Shown: positions 2,369-17,863 of the stretch, one piece after another
Position numbering within the stretch: the stretch's first letter is position 1
Layout of the letters: the number at the start of each line of letters is the position of its first letter
Made by a program: the position numbers and the translations under genes
Notes under the pieces: generated by a model
The model's input: only the letters and a program-made list of their open reading frames with translations
What the model was told of the DNA's origin: nothing
The model's database searches: none
Origin: Pseudomonas sp. ADAK13
GTDB taxonomy: Bacteria; Pseudomonadota; Gammaproteobacteria; Pseudomonadales; Pseudomonadaceae
NCBI RefSeq assembly: GCF_012935715.1
Contig: NZ_CP052860.1
Coordinates: forward strand, 3,038,001-3,102,000
Direction of reading: 5' to 3'
DNA: 64,000 bases

Positions 2369-2455
2369 ATGACCTGTCCCCCTTTTAAGCTCGTGCGCCG
2401 CCTTTGCCGTTTTTTTAGTACCGCAAACTATCTCGGAGTATTTCGTGATGTTTGA
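2369..2455 (+). CDS. Possible 28-residue leader ORF
   Basis: An ATG at 2369 has AGGAG 9 nt upstream (2355-2359) and reads 28 codons to a TGA at 2453-2455. It overlaps the start of the following gene by 8 to 11 bases. This arrangement is typical of translational coupling. The peptide (Cys-Pro-Pro near its start, then basic) matches nothing I know. It may be a leader peptide or chance. Confidence 0.3.
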   Translation: MTCPPFKLVRRLCRFFSTANYLGVFRDV

Positions 2456-2984
2456 TCTCTCGCTTCTCATAGGCCTCCCCAAACCCAACAGCATCGATAC
2501 CGCGTTGCTTACCCCTGAAGATGCCGCGATTAAACTACGGCAGGCTGCAACTCTTCGGCTTAATGGAGCCCAGAGTATCCTGCTTCATTTTCCGCAAGAC
2601 GTTGAGTTGGCGGTAGAGTTGTTGGATGACGCGGCAGTGCTGTTCGACAAAGCATTCCGATACCTGTCGGGTATCCCTGCTCAGCGCGTTCATCAACAGA
2701 TTGGTGAATACGTCTCTGTCTCGTCCGCTGAAGGCTGTCCCGGTATCCGAACACCATGGGGCAATGAATTTCGCCCGATGATTGAGGATGGCGTTCGATG
2801 CGCTGAGGCCTGGCTCGATGGCTCATCGTTGCCGCTGTGGTGGGCACTGGCGCAAAACCGAAAGCATCATCGTGCAGGTGATCCCCAAGAAGCATTTGAA
2901 GCAGGCTTTCTGCTGCGATTGCAGCAGACGCTGACCATGCGACGTGAAGCCGTCACCTCTCAATCAACCAGCTTTGATGCCTGA
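2448..2984 (+). CDS. Unknown island protein, about 178 aa
   Basis: The frame starts with GTG at 2445 immediately followed by ATG at 2448; GGAG at 2435-2438 fits either, and I choose the ATG. The protein is soluble, mostly helical in appearance, without signal peptide or membrane segments. It has Asp/Glu-rich helices in its first half and a Trp-containing stretch (SLPLWWALAQNRKHH) near residue 127. I do not recognise a domain. The neighbourhood (DUF3987 protein, integrase-type proteins) suggests an accessory gene of an integrative element, but no function can be assigned from sequence. Confidence 0.6.
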   Translation: MFDLSLLIGLPKPNSIDTALLTPEDAAIKLRQAATLRLNGAQSILLHFPQDVELAVELLDDAAVLFDKAFRYLSGIPAQRVHQQIGEYVSVSSAEGCPGIRTPWGNEFRPMIEDGVRCAEAWLDGSSLPLWWALAQNRKHHRAGDPQEAFEAGFLLRLQQTLTMRREAVTSQSTSFDA

Positions 2985-4051: not shown

Positions 4052-5452
4052 ATGCAGCAGTTAGATCCGAAGCTTGAACTACCACGACCACCTCGACCGC
4101 TGATCGAGTCGAATCCCTTATCCCAGCCTTATCCGTTGCAGGCACTGGGTGGGATTCTTGGGCCTGCGGTGGAGCGCATGGCCGAGGTTATCGGTGTGCC
4201 CCAGGCATTGGCTGCACAATCGGTGTTGGCTGCCTCGGCGCTGGCCACCCAAGGACATGCGGGCTTACAACTCGACGGGAGAAACTATCCCCTGTCGCTG
4301 TACCTGATCACAGTGGCCGCATCCGGTGATCGCAAGACCGCGGCAGATCGATGTGCATTGCTGCCTGCACGGCAATGGGAGCGTGAGCAGTGGCAGCGCT
4401 ACCGCGAACAGCTTGCTCGGTACCGTGCCGCACAGCGACAAGCGCAGCGTATCAATCCTGCCGATCCCGCCCCCACAAACAGCGTACCGCTTGAAGCGGA
4501 GCCTTCGGCCCCTCGGCTGATCACCACAGATCCGACGATTGAGGCCCTGATCAAGGGGCTCTGTCACGACCTGCCCAGCATGGGCCTGTTCTGTGACGAA
4601 GGCGGGCAGTTCCTAGGCAGCAGCACCATGAGTCGGGACAACCGTTTAAAAGCGGTCACGACCTTGTCGTCACTCTGGGACGGTAGCCCGATTGATCGCG
4701 CGCGCTCCATGGCCGGCGAAAGCCTACGGGCTTATGAGCGGCGCTTGAGCCTGCACCTGATGCTGCAACCGTATTTGGCCATGCAGTTACTCAGTGATCC
4801 GTTGCTGCAGGGGCAAGGCATTCTCGGACGCTGCCTGATGACCTGGCCCACCAGCCTGGCCGGGCAACGTAGCTACCAGGCTGTCGACTTGTCCAAAGAC
4901 GCCGCCCTCAAGCGCTATCATCACCGCCTTTCGGCTCTGTTTTATCAGCCTTGGTCACTTTCCGCTGACGGAGCCCTGCAGCTGTCAAAGCTGGTTCTCA
5001 GTCCTCTGGCGCGTCGTCGCTGGATTGATTTGCATGATGCTATCGAAGCTCAACTGGGGGAGTTTGGCGAGCTGGCCAGCGTACGGCCCAGCGGATCAAA
5101 GGCCGCCGATAACCTGCTGCGCGTCGCCGGCATTCTTGCAGTTGTGGAGGAGAGCAGTGTCGTGGAGGTCGACCATATCCAGCGGGCCTCGGCCTTAGTT
5201 GGCTACTACCTCACCGAGATCCAGCGCCTGACCGAGCAGGAGCCGGTGTGCCGGGTAAAAGAAGAGGCGGACCGGCTGTTGCGTTGGCTGCAGGTCAAGG
5301 ATTGGAAACGCTTCAGTATTCGAGATCTGAATCGCAACGGTCCCCGCTTTGCCCGCAAGAGCAGTCGTCATGCCGCAAAGCTGCTGGTCGAGTTGATTGA
5401 TCATCAGTGGTTGATCTCCGATGGCCACACCTTTGAGGTGCGCCATGTTTAA
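4052..5452 (+). CDS. DUF3987 (YfjI-type) protein of integrative element
   Basis: The 466-residue protein resembles the DUF3987/YfjI family found in prophages and integrative elements, often near primases and integrases; its biochemical role is not established. Residues 30-100 carry the family's start region, ending in SGDRKTAADR (91-100), a P-loop-like segment lacking the usual GKT. A charged coiled-coil-like helix with many Gln/Arg residues follows at about 108-135. The C-terminal 60 residues look like a small winged-helix domain. GAGGAGAGG precedes the ATG. The stop overlaps the next gene by 8 bases, so the two are probably co-translated. A DNA-replication role in the island is inferred from family context and the flanking repeat arrays. 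Confidence 0.75.
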   Translation: MQQLDPKLELPRPPRPLIESNPLSQPYPLQALGGILGPAVERMAEVIGVPQALAAQSVLAASALATQGHAGLQLDGRNYPLSLYLITVAASGDRKTAADRCALLPARQWEREQWQRYREQLARYRAAQRQAQRINPADPAPTNSVPLEAEPSAPRLITTDPTIEALIKGLCHDLPSMGLFCDEGGQFLGSSTMSRDNRLKAVTTLSSLWDGSPIDRARSMAGESLRAYERRLSLHLMLQPYLAMQLLSDPLLQGQGILGRCLMTWPTSLAGQRSYQAVDLSKDAALKRYHHRLSALFYQPWSLSADGALQLSKLVLSPLARRRWIDLHDAIEAQLGEFGELASVRPSGSKAADNLLRVAGILAVVEESSVVEVDHIQRASALVGYYLTEIQRLTEQEPVCRVKEEADRLLRWLQVKDWKRFSIRDLNRNGPRFARKSSRHAAKLLVELIDHQWLISDGHTFEVRHV

Positions 5453-5798
5453 TCTTGATGAAGCGTTGCGCAACCATCTGGCTCAGCGTCAAAAGGAGCC
5501 CAAAGCGCGATTTGTCGCCGCTACTGTCGCCACTTTGTCGCCACGCTCAAAACTAGGCAGGACAAGGGTTGTCGCCGCTGTCGCCAGTGTCGCCACCACC
5601 CATAAAGCTATCGCCTCTACGACAGCCATTATTCAATGGTTGAAAGAGGAGGGTGCGCATCTTTACGTCACCGACAACACGCTGTGTTTTCGCCCGACTG
5701 ATTGGGCTCAGTTCGCGATTGTAAGTGCGCACTGGCGAGCCCTTTTGCATGATCTCGCGGCAGTCGATCAAGAACAGAAAAATGGCTCGGGTCGGTAA
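5445..5798 (+). CDS. Small unknown protein with VA-repeat segment
   Basis: I choose ATG 5445, which overlaps the stop of the DUF3987 gene, over the in-frame ATG 5421 because the family-like N-terminus MFNLDEALRNHL begins there. It encodes 117 residues. The middle contains low-complexity Val-Ala-Ala/Val-Ala-Thr segments encoded by the TGTCGCC array (5513-5594). The C-terminal half (about 55-117) looks like a small folded domain with two Trp residues. Similar VAT-rich tails occur in mobile-element replication proteins, as far as I recall. The DNA repeat may be under selection as a binding site as much as the peptide. Confidence 0.6.
   Translation: MFNLDEALRNHLAQRQKEPKARFVAATVATLSPRSKLGRTRVVAAVASVATTHKAIASTTAIIQWLKEEGAHLYVTDNTLCFRPTDWAQFAIVSAHWRALLHDLAAVDQEQKNGSGR
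5513..5594 (+). repeat. Iteron-like TGTCGCC array, right copy
   Basis: TGTCGCC starts at 5513, 5525, 5536, 5570, 5579 and 5588. The array lies inside the small ORF following the DUF3987 gene. It is a diverged inverted copy of the array at 3226-3305, sharing the repeat unit, the order of spacings, and patches between them such as GTCGCCACGCTC and GGGTTGTCGCCG. Confidence 0.7.
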
Positions 5799-6762
5799 GC
5801 GAGCGGGGCGCAATTTCGGCTTCGGTCGCCAGCTTAGCTATGCTGGACCGCAAGCACTGAAAGACCTGTTTGGCGACGGCCATTTTGCTACCGTCAAAGC
5901 CCACAGTGATCGCTGGCAGGCGTTCGTGCATTGGTGTCGATCCGATGAAGGACCGAGGGTCAACGACGCGCGCCAGATAGATCGCGAGATCCTCATGCGG
6001 TACGCCGTCCACGTGCGGGAGCAGGTTGATCAGGGCAACGTCGGCATTGCCACCGCGCAGAACCGACTGTCCAGCGTGAACCGAACGATGGCCGCACTGC
6101 GCGGTGATCAGTACGTCAAAATCCCGAGTCCGAGTAAGGCGCTGGGCTTGCAGCGCTCAAGTGTGCGTAGTGAGGCTCCGCAAGGCCAAGACCGTACGCA
6201 GGTCAAGTTGATCGCCCGGGCGCTGTCAGATCGTCAGCAATCGAGGGTGAGTGCCATTGTGCTCCTCGCCCGTGAGACTGGTATGCGCCTGCGCGAAGCG
6301 ATCCTGGCCGATCTGCCCCGACTGCAACGTGAGGTTCGGCAACTGGGCAAGATCAACATCCAGGATGGCACCAAAGGTGGTCGATCAGGGGCCTCGGCAC
6401 CGCGCTGGATTACGGTAACGGATCAAGTTCGCGATGCCCTGGATTGGGCCAGCGCGACCTCACCCAGTGGCAGCCGGAATTTGTTGGCGCCCGACGAAAG
6501 CTACAAAGACTTTATGCAGGCAGTTGTGCGACCGGCACGGGACATCCTGCATGAGCATGGATTGAAAGGTTTTCATGAACTGCGGGCGGCTTATGCCTGT
6601 GAGCGCTATGAGCAATTGACCGGTTTCCCTGCACCCGTTAATGGCGCGGGTGGTCATCAAAAAGATCGAGAGCTTGATCAGCGTGCACGACAGCAGATCA
6701 GCCACGAATTGGGACATAACCGCATCGATGTGGTGAGTGCCTACATCGGAGGTCGGCGATGA
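5782..6762 (+). CDS. Tyrosine recombinase-type integrase domain protein
   Basis: From ATG 5782 the protein has 326 residues. A basic N-terminus precedes a helical core-binding region (about 30-125) and a catalytic region with Arg169 in TGMRLRE, Lys198, the HELR box (His265, Arg268), ELGH (His312) and the nucleophile candidate Tyr321 near the C-terminus. All expected tyrosine-recombinase residues appear present. The start overlaps the previous gene by 17 bases, and an upstream in-frame ATG at 5725 is less likely because it would extend the overlap. It is distinct from the integrase beside ssrA; such 'integrase domain' proteins are common inside Pseudomonas islands. It might recombine the element or a nested one. 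Confidence 0.8.
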   Translation: MARVGKRAGRNFGFGRQLSYAGPQALKDLFGDGHFATVKAHSDRWQAFVHWCRSDEGPRVNDARQIDREILMRYAVHVREQVDQGNVGIATAQNRLSSVNRTMAALRGDQYVKIPSPSKALGLQRSSVRSEAPQGQDRTQVKLIARALSDRQQSRVSAIVLLARETGMRLREAILADLPRLQREVRQLGKINIQDGTKGGRSGASAPRWITVTDQVRDALDWASATSPSGSRNLLAPDESYKDFMQAVVRPARDILHEHGLKGFHELRAAYACERYEQLTGFPAPVNGAGGHQKDRELDQRARQQISHELGHNRIDVVSAYIGGRR

Positions 6763-7049
6763 CGGCCGAGTTCGACATAGCGTTGTTCCTGCGCCCCGTG
6801 CTCAAAGGTGCACATGCCACGCAGCAGCGGCACATCAGGCAAGCAGAAAGGATGCACGAGGTGATTCGTGAGCGCTGGGGCTGTGCGACTCCTTGGTCCT
6901 GGAAGGAAAAGCACGTGAGATGGTTTCTGAAGCACTACCTGCGAAGCTCAGCACCAGCGACCGTCTACTACTATGAATTAACAGCAGGGTTGATTCGCTG
7001 CAGAAGGCACGAGCTTGATTGGTTGAATAGAATGCCAGCGCCTCTTTGA
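6759..7049 (+). CDS. Small protein coupled to the integrase, core-binding-like
   Basis: The start overlaps the integrase stop in an ATGA, a strong sign of coupled translation. The 96 residues are basic, with many Arg, Trp and His residues and helical heptads resembling the SAM-like core-binding domain of tyrosine recombinases. No catalytic residues are present. It may be an accessory DNA-binding partner of the recombinase or a degenerate recombinase fragment. It is a hypothetical protein otherwise. Confidence 0.6.
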   Translation: MTAEFDIALFLRPVLKGAHATQQRHIRQAERMHEVIRERWGCATPWSWKEKHVRWFLKHYLRSSAPATVYYYELTAGLIRCRRHELDWLNRMPAPL

Positions 7050-7518
7050 AATGGTGCCGCACCTTTTTGGGGGGGCGATGATCTTTATATGGATATTATT
7101 GGTGCGCCCATTGGGTGCCACCGCTATCGAGATGTGACTCGGAGAATAACCTAATTTAAGGTGGCTCTGCATTAATGCAGTTTGACAGTGCCTTTGAGCG
7201 TTCTACGAAAAAATACGAAATACTTCAAAGAACTTTCCTTGTTCTGCGCTTAAATGGTGCAAATCCTGACCTCAGGATGCACCAATAGGGTGAAAAAAGT
7301 GCGTAAATGATGTGAGTGCTCAAAGAGATTCTTTCAAAAAAAGGAGTGAGATTTTAATCGCTGCTGAATCGATTTTTTGTCAATGTAAATCAATGTCTTA
7401 AATGAGCGGGTTGAAGGTTCACAGTGTTAACTGAGTCCTAAGTGTTCTTTGGGGGGTTTACAGACGATCCAAATCTCAGTAGCTTTTTATGCATGAGATT
7501 TTAATGACAGGGAAAGTT
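7050..7518. other. AT-rich intergenic region before the biosynthetic cluster
   Basis: No gene is visible. The sequence is markedly AT-rich and should contain the promoter of the downstream six-gene set. It holds one short palindrome (7263-7278), ATCCTGA-CC-TCAGGAT, that could be an operator. GTGC(A/G)CC/GGTGC-type words recur around 7098-7130 and 7255-7290, but no clear repeat structure is seen. Confidence 0.45.
7263..7278. promoter_or_regulatory. Short palindrome, possible operator
   Basis: ATCCTGA and TCAGGAT are separated by CC. It is the clearest dyad in the promoter region of the cluster. No regulator gene is encoded nearby, so binding is speculative. Confidence 0.25.
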
Positions 7519-8946
7519 ATGAGTAATCCTAGGGATGCATATCTCAAGCGTTTGGTCGCACCTCGAAACATTTGGTTGAATGGTAGGAAAGTAAATAATG
7601 TTCTCCAAGAGCCTGCGTTTCAGGGGGCTATTGACATTACACTGTCCTATTACGATATGTTGGAAGGTCCAGACTTTCACTTCGATTACAAGGGCAGTCC
7701 TGCCGCAATAAGCTTGATGGTTCCAAATACTGTCGATGATCTAGCACGCAAACGTAATGCTTATAAAAAAGTGGCTGATAGTTCATTCGGGATGTTGGGG
7801 CGAACTCCCGATTTTATCAATGCCGGGTTGAGCGCTATGTGTTCTCATGCGACGTTCTTCGGGCGTGATGAATATGCGGATTACTCAGCCAATGTTATTG
7901 ATTTCTATGACCGTTGCGCCAAAGAGCATTTGTTCGTCGGTCACGGTGCTATCAACCCGCAGATTGATCGTTCCAAGCCCATGGGGCTTCAGTCCAACCT
8001 GTACGCTGGCGTCAAATGCGTAAACGTCAGTGATCAGGGGATCGAAGTCAGCGGTGCCAAAATGATTGTGACCCTTGCTCCCATCGCTGATCAATTACTG
8101 ATCTTCAACATGCCCGGACTGACTGAGCATGACGCCGATTATGCGCTGGCTTTCGCTGTCCCGACCGACGCGCATGGCTTGAAGATTATTTGTCGCAAGA
8201 GCCTAGTACATCCCGAATCTTCTGAGTTCGATTATCCGCTGTCGAGCAAAATGGATGAGATAGACGCCTATCTGGTGTTTGATCAGGTGCGTATTTCTTG
8301 GTCTGATGTGTTCATCTTTCGCGACATTGCCAAATCCAATCAATTCTACGACGTGACTCGCACTCGCCATCATACTGGTCACCAAGGGGTTGTCCGGGGG
8401 CTAGCCAAGGCCGAGCTGCTGATTGGCGTTGCGGACAGTCTTGCTCGCAACCTAGGTCTTTCCTCCTACATTAATGTCCAGGAACAACTGGGGGAACTCA
8501 CCACCGCCTATGAGCTTATCCGCGGTGCCGTAATACTCTCTGAACTCGAAGCTCAAGTTGACGCCGAAGGCGTGTGTAACCCAAGTATTCACGCGATCCA
8601 GGCAATTCGCTGTCATTTTCCGAAGTGGTACCAGAAAATGTTGCAGACAGTTCAGTCCCTAGCGGCGGGCTCAATGCTGGCCGTGCCTCACGGTGATGAC
8701 TTTCATAATGAGAACGAAGCATGCCTGCAACAGGCGTTGCAAAATCCGTTTTTGTCACCGTTGGACAGGGGCAAGCTACTCAACTTGGCCTGGGATGTAA
8801 GCGGCGATGGTTTTGGTCAGCGTCAAATGATCTATGAAACCTACCATGCTGGCGATCCCATGCGTATTGCTGCTGCGCACTACAGCAACTACAACAAGCA
8901 AGCCATGTCGGACTCGGTGGAGCGTGCGCTTAAAGGCAATCACTAG
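7519..8946 (+). CDS. HpaB/PvcC-type FADH2-dependent monooxygenase
   Basis: The protein (475 residues from ATG 7519) resembles the oxygenase component of 4-hydroxyphenylacetate 3-hydroxylase and its relative PvcC. These use reduced flavin supplied by a separate reductase to hydroxylate aromatic or related substrates. The N-terminal HpaB domain (YLKRL..RNIWLNGRKVNNV) and the C-terminal acyl-CoA-dehydrogenase-like fold with a GDGFGQRQMIYE stretch are visible. The in-frame ATG at 7489 is rejected because AGGGAA lies 4 nt before 7519 and the family N-terminus begins there. A matching reductase is encoded at 11386. The substrate is unknown; N-hydroxylation rather than phenol hydroxylation cannot be excluded. 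Confidence 0.85.
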   Translation: MSNPRDAYLKRLVAPRNIWLNGRKVNNVLQEPAFQGAIDITLSYYDMLEGPDFHFDYKGSPAAISLMVPNTVDDLARKRNAYKKVADSSFGMLGRTPDFINAGLSAMCSHATFFGRDEYADYSANVIDFYDRCAKEHLFVGHGAINPQIDRSKPMGLQSNLYAGVKCVNVSDQGIEVSGAKMIVTLAPIADQLLIFNMPGLTEHDADYALAFAVPTDAHGLKIICRKSLVHPESSEFDYPLSSKMDEIDAYLVFDQVRISWSDVFIFRDIAKSNQFYDVTRTRHHTGHQGVVRGLAKAELLIGVADSLARNLGLSSYINVQEQLGELTTAYELIRGAVILSELEAQVDAEGVCNPSIHAIQAIRCHFPKWYQKMLQTVQSLAAGSMLAVPHGDDFHNENEACLQQALQNPFLSPLDRGKLLNLAWDVSGDGFGQRQMIYETYHAGDPMRIAAAHYSNYNKQAMSDSVERALKGNH

Positions 8947-9058
8947 CTCGTATATATAGGTGGTCGGCCTGGTACGTAATATTATATTAAGTTTTCAGTT
9001 TTATGTGTGCCTGTGTCGTCGGTTGCATGATATTTGAAGTCAAAGGAGCTGACTGTTC

Positions 9059-10279
9059 GTGATTTATAATCTTGGCAAACTCTCCAGTGTCTTGGATTCG
9101 CAAGATATTGATATGTTGTTAGTGTCCACTCGCGAAAATATCAACTACTTCACGGGTGTCAGGCCCGTGATCAAGGAATTGAATCCCTATTATGGCGAAT
9201 GCTACCTCGTCATTTGTCGGCAGCGTCCAGATGTTGTGCATATCGTGCATTCTTGTGGAGAGTGCGATCAGATTACCGAGTCTAAAACCCCCATAGGCCT
9301 TGTTCGCACCTACGGTACTTTCTATCGCGAGTTACCCGATGCCAGCGTATTGCGCGGGGACGAAGTCGCCATTCATACATGGACCAGCAACTCGGCTCGT
9401 CACTCGAATGCCCAACAGGCGCTTTTTTCTCTGTTGCAAGAATTGGGTCTCACACCGTCGACCCGGGTCGGTTGTGACGAGGACGGCATTGCCCACTCCA
9501 CCCTGACCTCAATGCAGGAACAGTTCGGTCGAGACACTCTCGTTCTGGCATCAGCACTGATCCGACAGATACGCCGAGTCAAGACCCCTTATGAGGTCGA
9601 GATGCTGACCTTGGCGGCCCGCTGTAACGAAGCGGCGATCAAACAGGTGACAGACGCGGTGCATGTGGGCATCAGCGAGGTGCAAATCGGCAAGATCTTC
9701 GAGTCCGCCGTAGTCGACCTTGGCGGCCGCCCTGAGCTAACGATGATTAAGATTGGTCGTGACGCTGTCGGCGGGCAGCGCCAACAGAGGGCAGACATTA
9801 CCTTGCAGCGTGGCGACCTGCTCTGGTTCGACTCCAACACTCGATATCAAGGGTTCTGGGCAGACTTGGCGAGGGTCTACGCCTATGGTGACGTCACCGA
9901 TGCGACAGCTCGGCGCTATGTCGCGTTGCGTGAAGGGATGCTCCACGCAGAGCGGTTGATCAGGCCCGGGATGTCCGGCAAGGACGTCTTCAACATGACC
10001 ATGGAATGCGTGAGAAGCAACGGATTTCCTGAATACAGGCGTCATCACGTCGGGCATGGCATAGGCCACGAGGCCTATGAGCGGCCGATCCTGGCCCCTG
10101 GCGAAGACGCGCTGGTTGAGCAGGGCATGGTGATCTCGGTAGAGACGCCTTATTACGAGTTCGGCCTAGGAGCCTTGCACCTTGAGGATCCATTACTCAT
10201 CGGTGTCGAGGGCAACACTTTTCTGACCATGGATCCGTGTCCCGAGCTTGGGATTATCGCTACGTCATCGTTTCGATAG
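9059..10279 (+). CDS. M24 family (aminopeptidase P/creatinase-like) enzyme
   Basis: The protein has 406 residues and starts with GTG 9059, preceded by AAGGAG (9043-9048). An N-terminal creatinase-like domain (about 1-165) precedes a pita-bread domain with all five M24 metal ligands: Asp258, Asp269, His333, Glu362 and Glu376. It is therefore likely a dinuclear metal hydrolase, classically an Xaa-Pro peptidase. Within a biosynthetic set it could trim a peptide-like precursor, inactivate the product for self-protection, or act on a non-peptide substrate as creatinase does. It sits 112 bp after the monooxygenase and 20 bp before the PLP enzyme. Confidence 0.85.
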   Translation: MIYNLGKLSSVLDSQDIDMLLVSTRENINYFTGVRPVIKELNPYYGECYLVICRQRPDVVHIVHSCGECDQITESKTPIGLVRTYGTFYRELPDASVLRGDEVAIHTWTSNSARHSNAQQALFSLLQELGLTPSTRVGCDEDGIAHSTLTSMQEQFGRDTLVLASALIRQIRRVKTPYEVEMLTLAARCNEAAIKQVTDAVHVGISEVQIGKIFESAVVDLGGRPELTMIKIGRDAVGGQRQQRADITLQRGDLLWFDSNTRYQGFWADLARVYAYGDVTDATARRYVALREGMLHAERLIRPGMSGKDVFNMTMECVRSNGFPEYRRHHVGHGIGHEAYERPILAPGEDALVEQGMVISVETPYYEFGLGALHLEDPLLIGVEGNTFLTMDPCPELGIIATSSFR

Positions 10280-10299
10280 GAAATGAAGGGAGTCGCCTT

Positions 10300-11331
10300 G
10301 TGAAGAGCATTTTGGAAACCATTGGATCGTGTCCAGTCCTTGAGCTTTCCCACTCGCTGGTGCCCAGCGGCAAGAAGCTCTATTTGAAGCTGGAGCAATT
10401 TAACCCCAACCACAGCATCAAGGATCGGACCGCCTTGGGCCTAGTGCTGGCAGCCCTGGAGTCCGGTCTTCTGGCGCCTGGTGGCACCTTGATCGAATCC
10501 ACCTCCGGCAATCTCGGCAAATCCCTGGCGATGATCGGCGCGGCGATGGGCTTGAAAGTGATCGTGGTGGTCGACCCTAAGGTTAGCTCTAGTGCGATCA
10601 ATTGGTACAAAGCCTATGGCGCGCAGGTTGACTTGGTGACAGCGCCGGACGGTCAGGGAGGCTATCAACGCGCGCGGATCGAAAGGGTCCAGCAACTACT
10701 GCACGAGTACCCCGGTGCCTACTGGCCCAACCAGTATGACAATCCGCATAACCCGGCTTATCACGAGAAGGTCTCGGCCAAGGAGTTCGCCAGTCTCGAT
10801 TACGACGTGTTAGCCGGCTGCGTCAGCACGGGTGGGCATCTGTCCGGTATCGCCAGGGGGATCAAGATCGAACGCCCGCAGGTCAAGGTCCTGGCGTGCG
10901 ATGTGGTGGGGTCTGCGGTTCTGGGTGGGGCATTTTCGCCTTACTTGCTCAATGGTGTCGGCCTGGCCTGGCGCTCGGCCAATACCCACCTGGATTGCTT
11001 TGACTACCACAGCTTGATTGATGATCACCATGCGATCTCGATGTGCCGGATTCTGGCCCGTGAAAACGGTTTGCTGCTGGGCGGTTCGGCAGGGCTGGTG
11101 GCCTACGGCGCGCTGCAATGCCTGTATGGCTCCTCGGCGAAAAGTGTCCTGGCAATTATGCCTGACAGCGGCACGAACTACCTCGATACGCTGTATGACG
11201 ACCGTTGGGTGGACGAAAAACAGATCAAGTTGTACGGCGTCGAGGCAATGCGCCAAGACCTGCAGGCCAGCGATTTCAAAAGGTCCAGGCCGGGAGTGGA
11301 TGCCGAGCATTTGGCTTCAATGAGCTATTGA
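10300..11331 (+). CDS. Fold-type II PLP synthase (cysteine synthase/SbnA-like)
   Basis: From GTG 10300 the protein has 343 residues; GAAGGGAG lies about 8 nt upstream, whereas an earlier ATG at 10237 would overlap the preceding gene by 43 bases. The PLP lysine is Lys41 in HSIKDR; the TSGN substrate loop is at 68-71, and a glycine-rich GGSAGL occurs near 270. The C-terminal PDSGTNYLDTLYDDRWV resembles SbnA and cystathionine beta-synthase-like enzymes more than plain CysK. Such enzymes replace the beta-substituent of serine derivatives. SbnB, the usual partner in diaminopropionate synthesis, is not present. A beta-substituted alanine product is therefore inferred. Confidence 0.82.
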   Translation: MKSILETIGSCPVLELSHSLVPSGKKLYLKLEQFNPNHSIKDRTALGLVLAALESGLLAPGGTLIESTSGNLGKSLAMIGAAMGLKVIVVVDPKVSSSAINWYKAYGAQVDLVTAPDGQGGYQRARIERVQQLLHEYPGAYWPNQYDNPHNPAYHEKVSAKEFASLDYDVLAGCVSTGGHLSGIARGIKIERPQVKVLACDVVGSAVLGGAFSPYLLNGVGLAWRSANTHLDCFDYHSLIDDHHAISMCRILARENGLLLGGSAGLVAYGALQCLYGSSAKSVLAIMPDSGTNYLDTLYDDRWVDEKQIKLYGVEAMRQDLQASDFKRSRPGVDAEHLASMSY

Positions 11332-11385
11332 GGCGCGACACCTCCATTTGCGTTTCGTTTGCCTGTTCGTCCATGAGGATGCTGC

Positions 11386-11892
11386 ATGTTTGACTTCATT
11401 CAAACCGAGGCCATACCCCGGCAGGATTATCACGACGGCATGGCTAGGCTCGCGGCAGGCGTCTGCATCATCACTACGCGCGTCAATGGTCGTCCTGAAG
11501 GCATGACCGCCACGTCCGTCTGCAGCGTATCGGATACTCCGCCGACGTTGTTGGTATGCCTCAATCAACGGTCGAGCACTTTCCAGGCGTGTCTGCAGAG
11601 CGAAATATTGAGCGTCAATGTACTGGGCCCCCATGCCGCTGAGCTGAGCGAGATATTCGCCAAACCCCGCAGCGCTGTCGAAAAGTTCTCTTTTGGCCAA
11701 TGGCATACCGGGACCACAGGCTCGCCCTTACTCACGGATGCATTGGTGACTTTTGATTGCCGGATTGTCGCCACTCACCGTGTTCACTCCCACGGAGTGC
11801 TGTTCTGCGAGCCGGTGAGTGTGCAGGTAGGTAGTACACAGGAGGGGTTGGGCTACTTCAACCGGCGCTTCATTCGCCTGGCGGCGCTATGA
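11386..11892 (+). CDS. Flavin reductase (HpaC-like) domain protein
   Basis: The 168-residue protein has the flavin-reductase-like split-barrel fold: GMTATSVCSVSDTPPTLLVCLN near residues 42-63, NVLG near 83, and a terminal FNRRF. These proteins reduce FMN or FAD with NAD(P)H and pass the reduced flavin to a partner oxygenase. The HpaB-type gene four genes... upstream at 7519 is the obvious partner. GAGGA precedes the ATG, and the gene lies 54 bp after the PLP enzyme. Its length is normal for the family. Confidence 0.88.
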   Translation: MFDFIQTEAIPRQDYHDGMARLAAGVCIITTRVNGRPEGMTATSVCSVSDTPPTLLVCLNQRSSTFQACLQSEILSVNVLGPHAAELSEIFAKPRSAVEKFSFGQWHTGTTGSPLLTDALVTFDCRIVATHRVHSHGVLFCEPVSVQVGSTQEGLGYFNRRFIRLAAL

Positions 11893-11957
11893 GCCGGCAT
11901 GCGCTTTTTTAATTGTTCGATGCTTAACGAGTTTCCCTAACACCAGGAGATAACACT

Positions 11958-13814
11958 ATGTGCGGAATGGCGGGTTGGCTTTCTTACTCAAGGGATCTGA
12001 GGCAGCACCGGGACACTGTCCAGCGAATGACCGATACCATGTCCCTGCGCGGTCCTGACGGTGAAGGCTTGTGGATCGAGGGGCCAATTGCCCTGGGCCA
12101 TCGACGTTTGTCGGTGATCGATCTGGAGGGAGGCAGGCAACCCATGGCTGCCAACCAGCCGGGTCACGACAACGATGTAGCGGTCATCAGCTATGTTGGT
12201 GAGGTCTACAATTTTCGCGAGTTGCGTGCTGAGTTGGTGAGTAAAGGGCATCATTTCAAAACCAACAGTGATACCGAAGTGGTGTTGCGGGCCTATGTCG
12301 AATGGGGAGAACAGTTTGCCGAGCGCCTGAATGGCATGTACGGTTTTGCCTTGTGGGATATACGCAAACAAGAGCTGCTGTTGGTCCGTGACCGGATGGG
12401 CGTTAAGCCGCTGTTCTACTTTCCTACCGCTGATGGCGTGATCTTCGGCTCGGAGCCCAAGGCCATCCTGGCCAACGCCCTGGTGCCCCGGCGAATCCAG
12501 GCCGACGGCATGCGCGAGCTGTTGGAACTGGTCAAGACGCCGGGGCAGGCGATCTTCGCGGGCATGCGAGAGGTGCTGCCCGGTGAGATTGTCAAGGTCA
12601 ACCGCGATGGCATCAAGACTCGCCGTTATTGGCAACTAGAAGCCCGCGAGCACGGTGATTCGCTGCAGCAAACCATCCAGCATACCCGTGATTTGCTCGA
12701 AGACATTGTAGATCGCCAGATGATCACCGATGTGCCTCTGTGCGTGCTGCTGTCGGGCGGTCTGGATTCTTCGACCATCACATCCCTGGCCTCCAAAAAG
12801 CTGTTGGCCCAGGGCAAGGAAAATGTGCGTACGTTCTCCCTCGACTTCAAAGACCACGGTGAAGAGTTCGTTAGTGATGGCTTCCGCCTGACCCCCGACA
12901 CACCCTTTGTCTGGGACTTGGTCAAGTGGGTGGACTCCAATCACGGCCAGATCATCCTAGACAGCCGAGAGTTGGCCGATCCGGCATTGCGTCTTGCCGT
13001 CGTCCGCGCGCTTGACTTGCCGCCGGCCTATTGGGGGGACCTTTATCCTTCGCTTTACCGCCTTTTTGAGGAAGTGCGTAAACAATCCACGGTTGCACTG
13101 TCTGGCGAGGCCGCAGACGAGGTCTTCGGTGGGTACCGCTGGTTCCATGACCCGGCTGCCATTCCCGCCGATACCTTCCCGTGGATGTCCATGGCGACGG
13201 TCAAGTTGTTCGACGGCAAGAACCTGTTTGATCAGGGCTTGCTGACGAAACTGGATATGCCCGCTTTCGTGCAAGACAGCTACCGTCAAGCACTCGATGC
13301 GGTGCCGGAATTGCCGGGAGAGGACGCTACCAACCGGCGGATGCGCCAGATCACCCATATTCACCTGACTCGTTACGTGCAGTCCCTGCTGGACCGCAAG
13401 GACCGTATGAGCATGGCGGTGGGGCTCGAACTTCGGGTGCCGTTCTGTGATCACCGGTTGGTTGAGTATGCCTTCAATATTCCCTGGGAAATGAAAACCT
13501 TCGACGGCCGGGAGAAGAGTATCTTGCGTGCGGCGGCACGGGACTTGCTTCCGGATTCCATCGTGCAACGAATCAAAAACCCTTATCCGGCAACCCAGGA
13601 TCCGGCCTACGAAAAAGAATTGCGTTCGGCCATGTCCAGTATCGCGGCGGACCCGAATGCACCGGTGCGCCAGCTATTGGATCTGGGCCGAGTCAAGGAC
13701 ACGCTGGGCAGGGAGGCGGGGAAAGTCTCCCCGTTGCACGAACGCATGGGCATGGAGCGGGTGGTTGGCATGAACAGCTGGCTCGCCGAGTATGATGTGT
13801 CCGTGGATATCTAA
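11958..13814 (+). CDS. asnB: Class-B (glutamine-hydrolysing) asparagine synthetase
   Basis: The 618-residue protein has an N-terminal glutaminase domain with nucleophile Cys2, HRRLSVID near 49-55, and the DRMGVKPL segment at 145-152. The synthetase domain carries the pyrophosphate loop SGGLDSS at 266-272 and the SGEAADEVFGGY stretch. At the oxyanion-hole segment the E. coli NGEIYN is YVGEVYN here (79-85), so the usual Asn is Val80. From memory, an actinobacterial-type AsnB subfamily also replaces this Asn, so this may be a subfamily trait. In secondary metabolism such enzymes make primary amides; ordinary asparagine synthesis is the alternative. It is co-directional with the flavin reductase (65 bp gap). 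Confidence 0.85.
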   Translation: MCGMAGWLSYSRDLRQHRDTVQRMTDTMSLRGPDGEGLWIEGPIALGHRRLSVIDLEGGRQPMAANQPGHDNDVAVISYVGEVYNFRELRAELVSKGHHFKTNSDTEVVLRAYVEWGEQFAERLNGMYGFALWDIRKQELLLVRDRMGVKPLFYFPTADGVIFGSEPKAILANALVPRRIQADGMRELLELVKTPGQAIFAGMREVLPGEIVKVNRDGIKTRRYWQLEAREHGDSLQQTIQHTRDLLEDIVDRQMITDVPLCVLLSGGLDSSTITSLASKKLLAQGKENVRTFSLDFKDHGEEFVSDGFRLTPDTPFVWDLVKWVDSNHGQIILDSRELADPALRLAVVRALDLPPAYWGDLYPSLYRLFEEVRKQSTVALSGEAADEVFGGYRWFHDPAAIPADTFPWMSMATVKLFDGKNLFDQGLLTKLDMPAFVQDSYRQALDAVPELPGEDATNRRMRQITHIHLTRYVQSLLDRKDRMSMAVGLELRVPFCDHRLVEYAFNIPWEMKTFDGREKSILRAAARDLLPDSIVQRIKNPYPATQDPAYEKELRSAMSSIAADPNAPVRQLLDLGRVKDTLGREAGKVSPLHERMGMERVVGMNSWLAEYDVSVDI

Positions 13815-13827
13815 CGCAGAAGGTTTG

Positions 13828-13865
13828 GAACCCACCCGCGCAGCGCCGGCGACGCGAGTGGGTTC
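13828..13865. other. Intergenic hairpin between asnB and the MFS gene
   Basis: GAACCCAC (13828-13835) pairs with GTGGGTTC (13858-13865), with further CGCG pairing inside. No T run follows, so it may be a transcript-stabilising or attenuating hairpin rather than a full terminator. Confidence 0.45.
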
Positions 13866-13902
13866 ACGATGACTCAGCAGTGAACAGGGATGGACATTAC
13901 CA

Positions 13903-15084
13903 ATGGTCAGCTCAGCCTTGCGGATATGGTGTGCAGTTAGTGTGTTGTGTATGGCCTCGTTCACGATGGTGACGTCCGAGTTCGCCCCCATTGGTTTGTT
14001 GTCGCAGATATCATCCGACCTGGGTCAAACCCCGTCCACCGTCGGGTTGACGGTGACGCTGTACGCATGGATCGGGGCTGCCAGTGGCTTGTTATCCAAC
14101 TGGCTGAACCGCTGGATTCCCCGCAAGACGCTGCTGATCGCGTTGATGCTGATACTGGCCGTATCCAACGGCCTGGCGGCGTTATCCCCCGAATTTTCGA
14201 CGCTGCTAGGCGCTCGCGCCTTCGGCGCATTGGCTCATGGTGTGTTTTGGGCAATCGTGGCTGCCACTGCCGCGCATATTGTGCCCCTGCATCGCATGGG
14301 GCTAGCCACTTCGATCGTGTTGGGCGGCATTACGATCGCCACGGTCATGGGCGTTCCGTTGATCAATCTGGTGGGCCAATACGATGGTTGGCGCACGGCC
14401 TTTGTTTGCCTGGCGTTGATGTGTGTTGCCAGCGCTGGTGCGATAGCACTGGTGCTTCCCTCCATGCAGATTCATTCGCTTGCCAGGGGGGTAGGTTTTG
14501 CATCGGTACTGCGGCGGAAGGACCTGTTGATCACTTACGTCATCACCGGGTTGACTGCGGCTGCGCATTTTGGTGCCTACACTTTCGTCGAGCCGTTTAT
14601 TGGCCAGGTACCTGGGATTACGACGTACTTGATTGCTGTCTTGCTATTCGCCTTCGGGGCCGCAGGTTTCCTGGGTAATCTGCTTAGTGCGCTCTTTATT
14701 GATCGCTACTTGAGCGCTTTCATTCTGATAGCGTTGATTGCGATGGCATTGGCCTTGGTTACCTTGGGCATTTACGGTCCTCTTCTGGGTATCGCGCCGG
14801 TGGTTGTCTTGCTGGTGATCTGGGGGGTGGCCATTTCCGCTTTGTTTACCGGCCTGCAGACCTGGGTCTTGAGGATTGCCGGTGATCACACGGTACCGGC
14901 CACAGCAATCCATACAGCTGTACTGAATAGCGCGATCGGGCTGGGTGTGATTATCGGCGGAGAAGCGCTGAATGTGGCCGGCTTCAAGGGGGCGATGCTA
15001 TCGGCCAGCGTGGTGATTGTCCCTGCCATCGTCCTGATGGTTGCCGCAGGAGTCCGCGCTCGGACAGAACCCGTGTTCTTGTGA
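13903..15084 (+). CDS. MFS drug/metabolite efflux transporter
   Basis: The 393-residue protein has about twelve hydrophobic segments and the layout of the DHA1 branch of the major facilitator superfamily. The first helix ends in the SEFAPIGLL motif characteristic of sugar- and drug-efflux relatives (SetA/YdhP-like), and a basic RWIPRK loop follows helix 2. These are proton-driven exporters of the inner membrane. As the last gene of the six-gene set it probably exports the product and gives self-resistance; this is inferred from position. No truncation is visible. Confidence 0.85.
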   Translation: MVSSALRIWCAVSVLCMASFTMVTSEFAPIGLLSQISSDLGQTPSTVGLTVTLYAWIGAASGLLSNWLNRWIPRKTLLIALMLILAVSNGLAALSPEFSTLLGARAFGALAHGVFWAIVAATAAHIVPLHRMGLATSIVLGGITIATVMGVPLINLVGQYDGWRTAFVCLALMCVASAGAIALVLPSMQIHSLARGVGFASVLRRKDLLITYVITGLTAAAHFGAYTFVEPFIGQVPGITTYLIAVLLFAFGAAGFLGNLLSALFIDRYLSAFILIALIAMALALVTLGIYGPLLGIAPVVVLLVIWGVAISALFTGLQTWVLRIAGDHTVPATAIHTAVLNSAIGLGVIIGGEALNVAGFKGAMLSASVVIVPAIVLMVAAGVRARTEPVFL

Positions 15085-15338
15085 AACGGGAGGACGCTGA
15101 TATCTCAGTTGCAAAGGCTTAGACGGGCAGATTAGATCGCCCCTTCAAAACGGTCACCCGCCTGCAAGTGGCCACCGGCGTGTTCTTAGGTATCATCTGG
15201 GCTATTAAAACCGTGATCGCGGGATCCTCGAGCTGGAACAGTTGGGTCATCGGCGGAGGGTGGAAATTGCTCTCTTGAGGTGAGTACGGCCTTTACAATA
15301 GGTTAGATGTTTAGCCGTTCGCCGTCTTTTAAAAGTGA

Positions 15339-15381
15339 GCCCCTGCACACGGGAATGCGGAGCCTTCCCGTGTGCAGGGGC
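15339..15381 (-). terminator. Strong stem-loop, probable integrase terminator
   Basis: A perfect 17-bp stem (15339-15355 with 15365-15381) encloses a nine-base loop. Read on the minus strand it is followed by TCACTTTT, so it could end integrase transcription about 70 bp after the stop codon. The unusually long stem also suits a structured DNA site. Confidence 0.6.
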
Positions 15382-15411
15382 TTGGCATGAGTAGCACAGC
15401 AAGCAGACGAT

Positions 15412-15428
15412 TTGGCGACAGTCGCCAA
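15412..15428. repeat. GGCGACAGTCGCC palindrome, third copy
   Basis: TTGGCGAC-A-GTCGCCAA is a perfect 17-base palindrome. Its 13-base core is identical to the centre of the palindrome at 3285-3305. It lies 24 bp past the integrase stop codon. Confidence 0.55.
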
Positions 15429-15451
15429 CTCTATCGCCGTCCAGTGATCCC

Positions 15452-16708
15452 TCAGCGTATCGGGACGACATTGTGATCCCTGATTTGATTGATGGCAGAT
15501 GCCGACAGGCTGCCGGTGGCCGCCTTCTGGATATGTTCACTCCACCAAGCCATCATTGGGCGCCGGCGTTCGATGTAATCCGCCCGGTTATAAGCGCTTC
15601 GAACTTCGTCCTTATCGACATGCGCCAGCGCGACTTCGATTAGCTCCGGATCCCATCCATGCTCGTTGAGGATTGTGCTGGCCATGGAGCGCATGCCGTG
15701 GCTGACCAAACGGTCCTGAAAGCCCATTCGTTTCAACGCCATGTTTGCTGTTTGGCTATTCGCGTGGGTGCGCGGGTTCCTATCTGACGGGAACACATAT
15801 TCCCTGTGGCCGCTATGGGACTTAAGCGTCTCCAATAACGAGAGTGCATGTTCGGTAAGCGGGATTATGTGCGGACGACGCTTTTTCATTCGCTCCGCAG
15901 GGATTGTCCAGATGCATTTGTCGAAGTCGATATCTGCCCATCGGGTGGTCGCCGCTTCGGAGGGGCGGGTCATGGTATGAAGCTGCCATTCGATCAGGCA
16001 GCGGGTGGTCCGCTTGATGCTGGCGTTCGCGATTTCCATCATGAGTTCCGGAAGCTCGTCAGGTGCTAGCGCGGCCATATTCTCTTTCTTGGGTTTCTTG
16101 AAAACCGCCCGAATGCCGCTGAGGGGGTTGGCAAAGATCATCCCGGAATTGACTCCATAGGTCATGATCTCGTTAAGGCGTTGGCTCACTCGCTTAACCG
16201 TCTCGAGGCTGCCTTTTGCCTCAATTGGGCGAAGGAGCTTAATGACCATCGGAGCATTCACTTCCGATAACGGCGTTGATCTCATGGTTGGAAATACATG
16301 CAGTGTGAGCGAGCGCCAGATGTCTTCGGCATACGCTGGCGTGACCGAGTCCTTCTTCAGTTCGAACCAGGCGGTAGCGACGTTCTCGAACGTGTGCTCC
16401 GTTTCCGCTCGTTTGGCTTCTAGCAGCTCATTGCGTTGAGCTTTGGGGTCGATGCCTTGCGCAAGCAGCTCTCTGGCCTCAACGGTTTTCTTTCGCGCTT
16501 GCGCAAGAGAAACCTCGGGATAAGAGCCGAGTGCCATGTTGATTCGATTCTTGGTGACGGGGTGCCGGTAGTTGAAATTCCACTGCATTGAGCGATTGAC
16601 CCTGACTCGCAGCTGGAGCCCGTCGCCATCGGTGAGGACGTAATCCTTGTCTTTCGGTTTGACCGCCTTGAGCTGGCGGTCGGAGAGGCGGGTGGTTTGA
16701 GCGCACAT
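15452..16708 (-). CDS. P4-type tyrosine integrase of the ssrA-linked island
   Basis: The 418-residue protein has an N-terminal DUF4102 arm-binding domain (about 1-90), a core-binding domain (about 105-205) and a catalytic domain with Arg248 in TRPSEA, Lys276 region, HGMR (His337, Arg340), LAH (His363) and nucleophile Tyr373. All catalytic residues are present. Integrases of this type insert elements into tRNA or tmRNA 3' ends. The gene starts 187 bp from the 3' end of ssrA and reads away from it, the usual arrangement. The C-terminal tail after Tyr373 is about 45 residues. It is the main evidence that the left part of the window is an island. Confidence 0.93.
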   Translation of the reverse strand: MCAQTTRLSDRQLKAVKPKDKDYVLTDGDGLQLRVRVNRSMQWNFNYRHPVTKNRINMALGSYPEVSLAQARKKTVEARELLAQGIDPKAQRNELLEAKRAETEHTFENVATAWFELKKDSVTPAYAEDIWRSLTLHVFPTMRSTPLSEVNAPMVIKLLRPIEAKGSLETVKRVSQRLNEIMTYGVNSGMIFANPLSGIRAVFKKPKKENMAALAPDELPELMMEIANASIKRTTRCLIEWQLHTMTRPSEAATTRWADIDFDKCIWTIPAERMKKRRPHIIPLTEHALSLLETLKSHSGHREYVFPSDRNPRTHANSQTANMALKRMGFQDRLVSHGMRSMASTILNEHGWDPELIEVALAHVDKDEVRSAYNRADYIERRRPMMAWWSEHIQKAATGSLSASAINQIRDHNVVPIR

Positions 16709-16785: not shown

Positions 16786-16855
16786 CCGCCTGGAACTCAA
16801 AAAACCTGGAAAGCCCCCCGCAGCCCTGAAACCCCCGTATTCACTGGATTTCAGG

Positions 16856-16884
16856 CACAAAAAAAGACGTCCGTGGACGTCTTT
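16856..16884 (-). terminator. ssrA intrinsic terminator
   Basis: AAAGACGTCC (16863-16872) and GGACGTCTTT (16875-16884) form a 10-bp stem. On the minus strand it is followed by a run of seven T, 11 bp after the tmRNA 3' end. Confidence 0.85.
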
Positions 16885-16895
16885 AGATGATCAAG

Positions 16896-17289
16896 TGGTG
16901 GAGCCGGGGGGATTTGAACCCCCGTCCGCCAGTACTCCGCTGTCGGTACTACATGCGTAGCCGTTTCTATTAAGTTAACCCTCAGCGACCCGAAGGGCAG
17001 GGTGCTTTGGGCGAGTTGTGTAAGTTTTAGCCGCTTCGTCCACAACGTACTGCACGGCGATTCTGTTCTATATGACAATCACTTTGGGTTTACAGACATC
17101 CCCTGGTGATTGCTGGACCCGAAGGTACCAGGAGGGAAGGGCTAAGGCTGCTTACGCAGCGAGAGCGTATTCCCCGTAGGTTTCGTCATTGGCAACTATA
17201 AGAAGTTGCAACAGTGGATTTACGAGTTCTGTTACCAACTCGGCATGCACCTAAAGTTTCGCAACCGGCGTCGAATCCTAAACGGCCCC
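16896..17289 (-). ncRNA. ssrA: tmRNA (transfer-messenger RNA)
   Basis: The 394-base gene begins GGGGCCGTTTAGGATTCGACG on the minus strand and ends GGCTCCACCA, giving the tRNA-Ala-like acceptor and the GGGGGTTCAAATCCCCCC T-arm. The tag reading frame is at 17152-17193 and encodes ANDETYGEYALAA followed by TAA. It rescues stalled ribosomes together with SmpB (23524-24006). The 3' end is the likely attachment site of the island encoded to its left. No second copy of the T-arm/CCA sequence was found inside the window. Confidence 0.96.
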
Positions 17290-17354
17290 GTGCTTGTAAC
17301 TCGTTGTTTCTTAGTGAGTGACAAGCCTGTGCAGTGTACGTCAATCGGTCACAG

Positions 17355-17378
17355 AAGGCCAACCCGAAGGTTGGCCTT
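17355..17378 (-). terminator. Terminator of the small exported protein gene
   Basis: AAGGCCAACC and GGTTGGCCTT form a 10-bp stem with a CGAA loop, 14 bp after the stop codon on the minus strand. Confidence 0.7.
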
Positions 17379-17392
17379 GGGCAATCAGCGAG

Positions 17393-17677
17393 TTACTGAT
17401 TGCCGCCTTTGTCCGAGTCTTGCAGGCTTTGCAGGGCCTTGGAGGTGATCTCGATGCATTTCTTGTCATCGCCTGCGGCATGGGCCGCTTTGGCTTGGGA
17501 AACGGCGGTGTCGATTTCGCCAGATTTGCCGCTGGTGTCGGTGGCGAGCAACGCTTTACCGTTGTTGATTTTGTCCAGGTTGATTTGGCACAGATCGTCT
17601 TTTGTTCCGGCTGCAAACGCGGGGGACGCCAGCATCGCAGCGGTAATGAACAAACCAGCAAGAGCGGAACGCTTCAT
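17393..17677 (-). CDS. Small exported protein of unknown function
   Basis: The start at 17677 is chosen because AAGGAG lies 7 nt upstream and it begins a clear signal peptide (MKRSALAGLFITAAMLASPAFA, cut after about residue 22). An upstream in-frame ATG at 17740 lacks these signs. The mature protein of about 72 residues is Lys/Asp/Ala-rich and has two cysteines (about residues 30 and 73) that could form a periplasmic disulfide. I know it only as a conserved hypothetical type in Pseudomonas. It is probably monocistronic. Confidence 0.75.
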   Translation of the reverse strand: MKRSALAGLFITAAMLASPAFAAGTKDDLCQINLDKINNGKALLATDTSGKSGEIDTAVSQAKAAHAAGDDKKCIEITSKALQSLQDSDKGGNQ

Positions 17678-17863
17678 GGGTATCTCCTTGTGCAAATAGG
17701 GCTCGATGCTGCCGGTTTTCCGTGCAGCCAGCGAGGTCACTGATGAGCCTCGTGTGTCGAGGCCTATGCAGATGACTACGCCGGCGCGCAGGGGTTCTGT
17801 TTTGTCGCTGGATTAGTCGAAAAACCCCGAAATCATTAGGTTTTGCACCCAAAGAGGGCGGCC

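Follow-up and report, generated by a model that had tools for sequence, protein, structure and literature searches.

What kind of small molecule is probably made by six genes of Pseudomonas sp. ADAK13 that include neither a nonribosomal peptide synthetase nor a polyketide synthase gene? The genes lie within a stretch of 64,000 nucleotides (the window) taken from the single contig, NZ_CP052860.1, of this 7.3 Mb genome, where they form six intact, co-directional open reading frames (ORFs) on the plus strand (7489/7519-15084). They encode an HpaB-type monooxygenase, an M24 metalloenzyme, a pyridoxal phosphate (PLP) enzyme resembling SbnA, an HpaC-type flavin reductase, a class-B asparagine-synthetase-like enzyme (AsnB) and an exporter of the major facilitator superfamily (MFS). 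An earlier note on this DNA had named these families and had read from them a small amino-acid-like product. All six genes were found by ORF calling and assigned to the named families with Pfam and NCBIfam models, and the assignments support a small-molecule pathway with a two-component flavin monooxygenase pair, AsnB-type amidation and export. As for the product, the proposed beta-substituted alanine step stands, but the accessory genes of relatives in other bacteria, which encode the dihydroorotate dehydrogenase PyrD, the orotate phosphoribosyltransferase PyrE, LOG-type phosphoribohydrolases and NUDIX hydrolases, point to an orotate- or pyrimidine-like compound. We propose, with confidence only somewhat better than even, that the locus is the Pseudomonas version of a mobile operon family making a small antimetabolite that resembles orotate or a pyrimidine base.

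A three-gene core in distant bacteria

Relatives were sought on plasmids, by tblastn with the M24, SbnA-like and HpaB proteins, and in 84,980 species genomes, by a pattern-based scan with M24. HpaB, M24 and SbnA occur in identical order and on the same strand in all 12 opened loci that hold the three, four of them in Pseudomonas and eight elsewhere, from two phyla. The eight represent six lineages: Pectobacterium, Chimaeribacter, Sphingobium, Bacillaceae, Staphylococcus epidermidis and Macrococcus. The trio is on chromosomal contigs of Pectobacterium zantedeschiae and Pectobacterium peruviense and on plasmids of Chimaeribacter arupi, Sphingobium sp., the marine Bacillaceae bacterium C02, S. 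epidermidis and Macrococcus. Five of the six lineages were drawn from the plasmid collection, so that plasmid location is partly an artefact of the search, and the counts leave out four further matching plasmid records (three from S. epidermidis, one from Macrococcus). The relatives are 45-57% (HpaB), 36-47% (M24) and 44-58% (SbnA-like) identical to the window proteins. Eight cluster copies of HpaB score 786-862 bits on a profile of this protein (A4), and the best other match among those listed scores 421; seven of the eight are rows of the profile, and the eighth (G1544), which is not, scores 850 bits. Two Nitratireductor HpaB proteins reach 229 and 211 bits on the cluster HpaB profile.

All six genes recur together in four Pseudomonas genomes: the window's own, P. 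spelaei (L004), P. orientalis (L005) and a further genome, G160 (L056). The ratio of nonsynonymous to synonymous substitution rates (dN/dS) is 0.02-0.24 in 18 of 18 pairwise comparisons with the window, no copy contains an internal stop, and the six-gene set is under purifying selection. Recurrence of all six in these three other genomes, without internal stops and with low dN/dS, shows that the set is not a chance assemblage, and the co-occurrence outside this genome on which the earlier note had made its case depend does exist. Across phyla only HpaB-M24-SbnA was found. The conserved unit is this trio, smaller than six genes, and HpaC, AsnB and the MFS exporter, present at four of four Pseudomonas loci, belong to the Pseudomonas version. 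AsnB had no match at the non-Pseudomonas loci, and a flavin reductase, Fre-like and 5' of HpaB, is seen in Pectobacterium and Chimaeribacter, with none identified at the other non-Pseudomonas loci.

The cluster is rare. In genome surveys with overlapping samples, M24 was detected in 3 of 398 genomes of its own genus (the window's genome counted), and the SbnA profile found one of 298 genomes of its own family, namely the window's. With the HpaB profile, the single hit among 345 Enterobacterales was the centre genome, which is itself part of the profile; the genus of that genome gave 2 of 25, and the phylum of a Mycolicibacterium, sampled without a positive control, gave none of 396. Within the window's own phylum the profile found 2 of 398, the window's genome and G1456 (421 bits); the latter was rejected as a cluster member, since its neighbourhood contains neither M24 nor SbnA and resembles aromatic degradation. 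Viral contigs, prefiltered with two short peptide patterns per protein, gave no relative on the SbnA or HpaB profile, and 3,932 bases taken from the Pectobacterium core had no counterpart in E. coli genomes.

Orotate and nucleotide enzymes joined to the core

Outside Pseudomonas the core is accompanied by genes of nucleotide metabolism. A LOG-type phosphoribohydrolase (TIGR00730) and a NUDIX hydrolase are each present at eight of eight loci, the NUDIX genes of L002 and L035, which an ORF filter had hidden, being counted from record annotation and a motif check. PyrD and PyrE are each present at seven of the eight, and at least one of the two at all eight. Seven LOG and seven NUDIX copies (L007 left out) keep what we take to be the signature motifs of their families, and the cluster PyrD and PyrE proteins retain the stretches that we presume to hold their catalytic and orotate-site residues. 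The Pectobacterium cluster PyrD scores 256 bits on mitochondrial-type class 2 dihydroorotate dehydrogenase against 231 on structure 1f76, which we assume to be E. coli PyrD; this higher score, together with its 40% identity to the other PyrD match of the genome, for which one in-frame TAA is given, makes it probable that the gene came in along with the rest of the cluster. Five of the eight loci (S. epidermidis, two Macrococcus, Bacillaceae and Chimaeribacter) also have an SbnI-like serine kinase; scores on the SbnI model (O-phosphoserine synthase, cut-off 350) are 178.8 bits for the Bacillaceae protein and 102 for the Macrococcus protein that was tested. Distance matrices calculated for HpaB, M24, SbnA, LOG, PyrD and PyrE have correlations of 0.92-0.98 with one another, a level reached by 0 to 32 of 2000 permutations.

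An orotate- or pyrimidine-like product is, in our reading, the best explanation because the orotate-binding PyrD and PyrE, LOG (a kind of enzyme that removes bases from nucleotides), NUDIX and exporters are repeatedly joined to a serine-based three-enzyme core. The same genes could instead be a uracil supply, in which PyrD, PyrE and LOG lead from dihydroorotate through orotidine monophosphate and uridine monophosphate to the free base, and the SbnA-like enzyme attaches this base to O-phosphoserine; the resulting amino acid, of the willardiine type, would be hydroxylated by HpaB. Such a scheme would account for LOG beside PyrD and PyrE and for the use of O-phosphoserine, and the Pseudomonas reductase does score best on RutF of uracil breakdown (169 bits, and 114 on HpaC, each under the curated cut-off). 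We hold it to be distinctly improbable: CarAB, PyrB and PyrC are absent from the gene lists read, NUDIX and M24 are left without explanation, and no AsnB match occurs at the loci that bear PyrD, PyrE and LOG.

The staphylococcal plasmids raise another candidate, as 6-N-hydroxyaminopurine has been reported from S. epidermidis. The S. epidermidis/Macrococcus version, and by extension the family, would then make this purine, with HpaB N-hydroxylating adenine and NUDIX and LOG cleaning up nucleotides, and the literature does mention the compound, S. epidermidis and 'gene cluster' together, as a text match only. Such a route has no use for SbnA, M24, SbnI or the orotate enzymes, no open-access paper was found that joins the compound with biosynthesis, a plasmid and a monooxygenase together, and we consider this origin extremely doubtful.

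Several accessory loci carry further genes. The Bacillaceae C02 plasmid (L038:17841-20479) has, by eye, a dihydropyrimidine dehydrogenase PreA/PreT-like pair beside the cluster PyrD and a YdcZ-like exporter gene. Inside the Sphingobium plasmid cluster (L037:13865-16582) lie a weakly KAS III-like protein and an adenylation-carrier protein, closest to oxalyl-CoA synthetase and overlapped in part by a shorter annotated 'hypothetical' gene; the adenylation-carrier protein hints that the pathway of this host can take in a two-carbon acid. On the S. epidermidis plasmid the annotation divides the cluster MFS gene in two (L035:1654-2984), which suggests a frameshift, and genes for an HD-domain phosphohydrolase and an NAD-dependent oxidoreductase stand between MFS and PyrE.

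Residues and model scores of the enzymes

Because its score on the SbnA model TIGR03945 (282.2 bits) is under the cut-off of 349.95, the PLP enzyme is, by sequence, SbnA-like rather than SbnA. In SbnA, Arg132, Tyr152 and Ser185 are responsible for the selective binding of O-phosphoserine, according to an excerpt of PMC12414870. The equivalent residues R147, Y167 and S197 are invariant in eight of eight aligned rows, and in the cluster enzymes STGGH takes the place of the STTGS loop of SbnA. We predict that the SbnA-like enzyme likely catalyzes an O-phosphoserine-dependent beta-substitution that gives a beta-substituted alanine, the step for which the earlier note had argued.

The M24 enzyme keeps the metal ligands D258, D269, H333, E362 and E376, invariant in eight of eight rows. 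His192, His291 and Arg295 of Pyrococcus furiosus prolidase, which we take to be catalytic, correspond to Q240, Y340 and I344 (V344 in some). A search of outgroups tried 15 rows, two of which (L011 and L019) were excluded as being in the wrong reading frame; Tyr340 marks a wider subfamily and not the cluster alone, because 13 of the 13 usable outgroup sequences carry it.

The HpaB protein is under the cut-off of both curated models, with 342.7 of 480.2 bits on TIGR02309 and 194.2 of 885.2 on TIGR02310. We presume that Arg100, Tyr104, His142 and the Ser197-Thr198 loop of Thermus thermophilus HpaB are functional or substrate-loop residues. The first and third are kept as R105 and H152, and Tyr104 is replaced by F109 and Ser197-Thr198 by M208-P209 in 10 of 10 cluster rows. 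Among seven outgroup rows used as a control, Phe109 is present in five, Pro209 in three and Met208 in none. Phe109 of HpaB and Tyr340 of M24 were dropped as hallmarks of the cluster since both occur in outgroups; judged against those outgroups, the residues specific to it are only HpaB M208 and ten other HpaB residues, together with K39, K231 and R241 of M24.

AsnB has the full glutamine-dependent architecture, with the N-terminus MCGMAGW and 482 bits on TIGR01536 (asn_synth_AEB, cut-off 267). Its nearest solved structure is the hydroxyamidotransferase 7ylz, with 568 bits against 142 for asparagine synthetase B (1ct9), and enzymes of this type make hydroxamates from glutamyl hydroxamate (excerpt of PMC13418202). 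This raises the idea that AsnB is a TsnB9-type hydroxyamidotransferase and the Pseudomonas product a hydroxamate. We rejected that reading as a first choice and consider it very unlikely, since AsnB is closer to three other asnB genes (47%, 53% and 56% identity) than to SaHAT (44%). Nor is it the sister of SaHAT in a tree of eight sequences, and the six genes include no match to a diiron oxygenase of the TsnB7 type, TsnB7 being AurF-like (excerpt of PMC5719088). The MFS protein scores 237 bits on PRK03545, 166 on Cmx/CmrA and 123 on NepI, none of which reaches its cut-off.

Proposed pathway and product

The chemical steps and the biological role are what we infer from the observed gene content, gene order, conservation, mobility and residues. 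We propose that, on the SbnA-like enzyme, a nucleophile is coupled to the three-carbon unit of O-phosphoserine and a beta-substituted alanine results, as the conserved O-phosphoserine-selecting residues and the linked SbnI-like kinases suggest. The M24 metalloenzyme would then close or reshape the intermediate, and our guess is a cyclic-amide step like that of dihydroorotase. HpaB with a flavin reductase would hydroxylate the intermediate, probably at nitrogen or on a ring. The extra PyrD and PyrE, LOG and NUDIX of other hosts may either complete the base and set it free or protect the producer. In the Pseudomonas version, AsnB would convert a carboxylate to the amide, and the MFS protein would export the product. 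PyrD and PyrE may serve protection of the producer or synthesis, as their patchy presence and canonical sites are compatible with either.

A more specific form of this proposal is a chemical guess, and an improbable one, namely that the family builds an emimycin-like pyrazine isostere of orotate or uracil. Emimycin is a uracil analogue, and no gene cluster for it was found in the open-access literature. Here the SbnA-like enzyme would combine O-phosphoserine with glycine into N-(2-amino-2-carboxyethyl)glycine (SbnA itself uses glutamate), M24 would close a six-membered lactam as dihydroorotase closes dihydroorotate, and HpaB would oxidize the ring nitrogen. PyrD would aromatize the ring, PyrE ribosylate it and LOG free the base in other hosts, with NUDIX as a safeguard, and in Pseudomonas AsnB would make the ring carboxamide. 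In Sphingobium the oxalyl-CoA synthetase-like, carrier-linked ligase would supply the two-carbon unit as oxalate.

A number of observations weigh against an orotate- or pyrimidine-like product of a functional mobile family. No PyrD, PyrE, LOG or NUDIX match was found at the four Pseudomonas loci, and because of this the Pseudomonas product may differ from that of the relatives. The S. epidermidis plasmid is without PyrD and the Sphingobium stretch without PyrE. The orotate enzymes look canonical, which could mean that their role is supply and not resistance or processing of the product. The SbnI-like proteins fall short of the model cut-off; that of Chimaeribacter scores a very weak 18.8 bits on SerK, and Pfam gives no domain in the three tested (Bacillaceae, Macrococcus and Chimaeribacter). 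The correlation of the distance matrices is confounded by host relatedness and is supportive at most. Some copies look damaged, with the MFS gene split in S. epidermidis and M24 in pieces on another S. epidermidis plasmid, and some relatives are fragments (M24 in Chimaeribacter californicus, AsnB in Pantoea). Finally, a promoter scan of the operon region (6900-15500) gives no excess over shuffled sequence (3 sites against a mean of 5.5) and is uninformative.

The absence of nucleotide-handling genes from the Pseudomonas loci fits a plainer product that mimics no pyrimidine, a non-proteinogenic amino acid. The SbnA-like enzyme would make it as a beta-substituted alanine, HpaB/HpaC would hydroxylate it and AsnB amidate it, the exporter would release it, and the orotate genes of the relatives would buffer a general toxicity. 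The family assignments, the AsnB and MFS genes of the Pseudomonas version and the retained O-phosphoserine-selecting residues are all in keeping with it. We regard it as rather unlikely, in that PyrD and/or PyrE, LOG and NUDIX at every one of the eight non-Pseudomonas loci would then be a coincidence.

If the proposal of an orotate- or pyrimidine-like antimetabolite is true, the core would be a compact, transferable three-enzyme route to a compound directed against pyrimidine metabolism, present in Pseudomonadota and Bacillota and carried also on plasmids of human skin staphylococci. The extra PyrD and PyrE copies hint at the target of the product. Mobile antimetabolite operons are already known as a kind, and it is the core enzymes that are unusual here. 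They would add to those known an M24 enzyme that lacks the catalytic residues of prolidase, an HpaB whose substrate loop is altered, and a PLP enzyme of the O-phosphoserine type in which the loop is changed to STGGH.

Comparison with known systems

The D-cycloserine pathway, in which we take DcsD to be the O-ureidoserine synthase, likewise uses a cysteine-synthase-like enzyme for a serine-derived beta-substitution toward a small cyclic antibiotic. It differs in that the profile of the cluster enzyme favors SbnA over O-ureido-L-serine synthase (269 vs 170 bits) and in that the six-gene set lacks an arginase and an ATP-grasp protein. With staphyloferrin B and L-2,3-diaminopropionate synthesis (SbnA, SbnB, SbnI) the cluster shares the O-phosphoserine-selecting residues and, at the five loci given above, the SbnI-like kinase, whereas the Pseudomonas six include no SbnB-family gene, HpaB and M24 are added and the loop reads STGGH. 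The 4-hydroxyphenylacetate 3-monooxygenase HpaB/HpaC shares the fold, the Arg100 and His142 equivalents and the pairing of oxygenase with flavin reductase; the cluster HpaB has Phe for Tyr104 and Met-Pro for Ser197-Thr198, and 343 bits against a cut-off of 480.

A further parallel is the tgs operon of coagulase-negative staphylococci, which makes 6-thioguanine, includes NUDIX enzymes and an exporter and is on a plasmid in one Staphylococcus chromogenes strain (excerpt of PMC7994395). Both are small operons, the tgs operon having six genes with two NUDIX proteins, an efflux protein and a PLP enzyme for a nucleobase antimetabolite of patchy occurrence. Thus antimetabolite clusters with NUDIX, exporter and plasmid carriage exist for purines. 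The difference lies in the purine and sulfur-transfer chemistry (SufS-like, TtuA-like) of tgs, whose gene table lists no HpaB, M24, SbnA or orotate enzymes. Nucleotide-handling genes such as NUDIX are in the operon at eight of eight non-Pseudomonas loci and were seen at none of four Pseudomonas loci. The authors of the 6-thioguanine study, in the same excerpt, call for more nucleotide-analogue genes to be found, and the core described here is a candidate. TsnB9/SaHAT shares the class-B amidotransferase architecture and is the nearest solved structure (excerpt of PMC13418202), and it is set apart by 44% identity and by the lack of a TsnB7-like partner among the six genes.

No described cluster with this gene set was found in searches of open-access text, MIBiG, subscription journals and preprints being outside their scope, and asparagine-synthetase, cysteine-synthase and flavin-reductase terms are absent from the main text of two antibiotic-cluster papers (PMC4010436, on Pantoea, and PMC7744662). 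The earlier view that no described pathway has this set agrees with these searches, and we provisionally regard it as undescribed.

Mobility and genomic context

The six genes were predicted to lie inside an island, and a tyrosine integrase gene that adjoins the transfer-messenger RNA (tmRNA) gene makes this placement well supported (Table 1). An exact search of the window and the 8 kb to its left found no second copy of at least 14 bases of the attachment site. The HpaB ORF is listed as 7489-8946, and its start is probably at 7519, in agreement with the P. spelaei start; the SbnA-like ORF is listed as 10237-11331, and the gene probably starts at the GTG at 10300, downstream of the M24 stop.

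Table 1. Genes of the locus and of its presumed integration site, in window coordinates
Feature	Coordinates	Strand	Basis
HpaB-type FADH2-dependent monooxygenase, core gene 1	7519..8946	+	PF11794/PF03241 (HpaB_N/HpaB)
M24 creatinase/prolidase-fold metalloenzyme, core gene 2	9059..10279	+	PF00557/PF01321 (Peptidase_M24/Creatinase_N)
SbnA-like fold-type II PLP enzyme, core gene 3	10300..11331	+	PALP; TIGR03945 below cut-off; closest structure SbnA 5d84
HpaC/RutF-type flavin reductase, presumed HpaB partner, Pseudomonas version	11386..11892	+	PF01613 (Flavin_Reduct)
Class-B asparagine-synthetase-like amidotransferase, N-terminal Cys2, Pseudomonas version	11958..13814	+	GATase_7 + Asn_synthase
MFS exporter (SotB/NepI/Cmx-like), presumed product efflux, Pseudomonas version	13903..15084	+	PF07690 (MFS_1)
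Tyrosine integrase, PRK09692-type	15452..16708	-	NF007246 487 bits, over cut-off; adjoins tmRNA 3' end
tmRNA gene (ssrA), presumed integration site	16896..17289	-	ARAGORN

Identity between the window and P. orientalis is 98.2% over the segment 6915-15132 and 86.8% over the neighboring chromosome (16810-21960), and the integrase is reduced in P. orientalis to a 60-base match. In P. spelaei the sole match in the first 25 kb of the window is 7511-15079, at 90.3% identity and in a different neighborhood. From this contrast in identity and this change of neighborhood it follows that the cluster moves horizontally.

Two decayed relatives were seen outside Pseudomonas. A Pantoea dispersa plasmid (L001:12002-13947) holds, downstream of a transposase gene, the remnant of a related cluster, with a C-terminal fragment of AsnB (73% identity) and an intact-looking MFS gene (82%), the core genes being unmatched within that stretch. 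In Chimaeribacter californicus (L023:10001-10914) the match to M24 is limited to the end of the gene, and the LOG gene comes next.

Left of the cluster in the window are genes for a DUF3987 protein (4052-5452) and an Integrase_1-domain protein (5725-6762), with counterparts in the same place in the G160 island. A small protein at 2445-2984 (+) matches the QslA (LasR-specific antiactivator) domain with an E-value of 2e-10. Druantia type II-like defence genes occupy 633-1853 (-) of the window and the chromosome just to its left (L058:3712-8370, -), with scores on the PADLOC models of 639 bits for DruM, 1167 for DruF and 890 for DruG.

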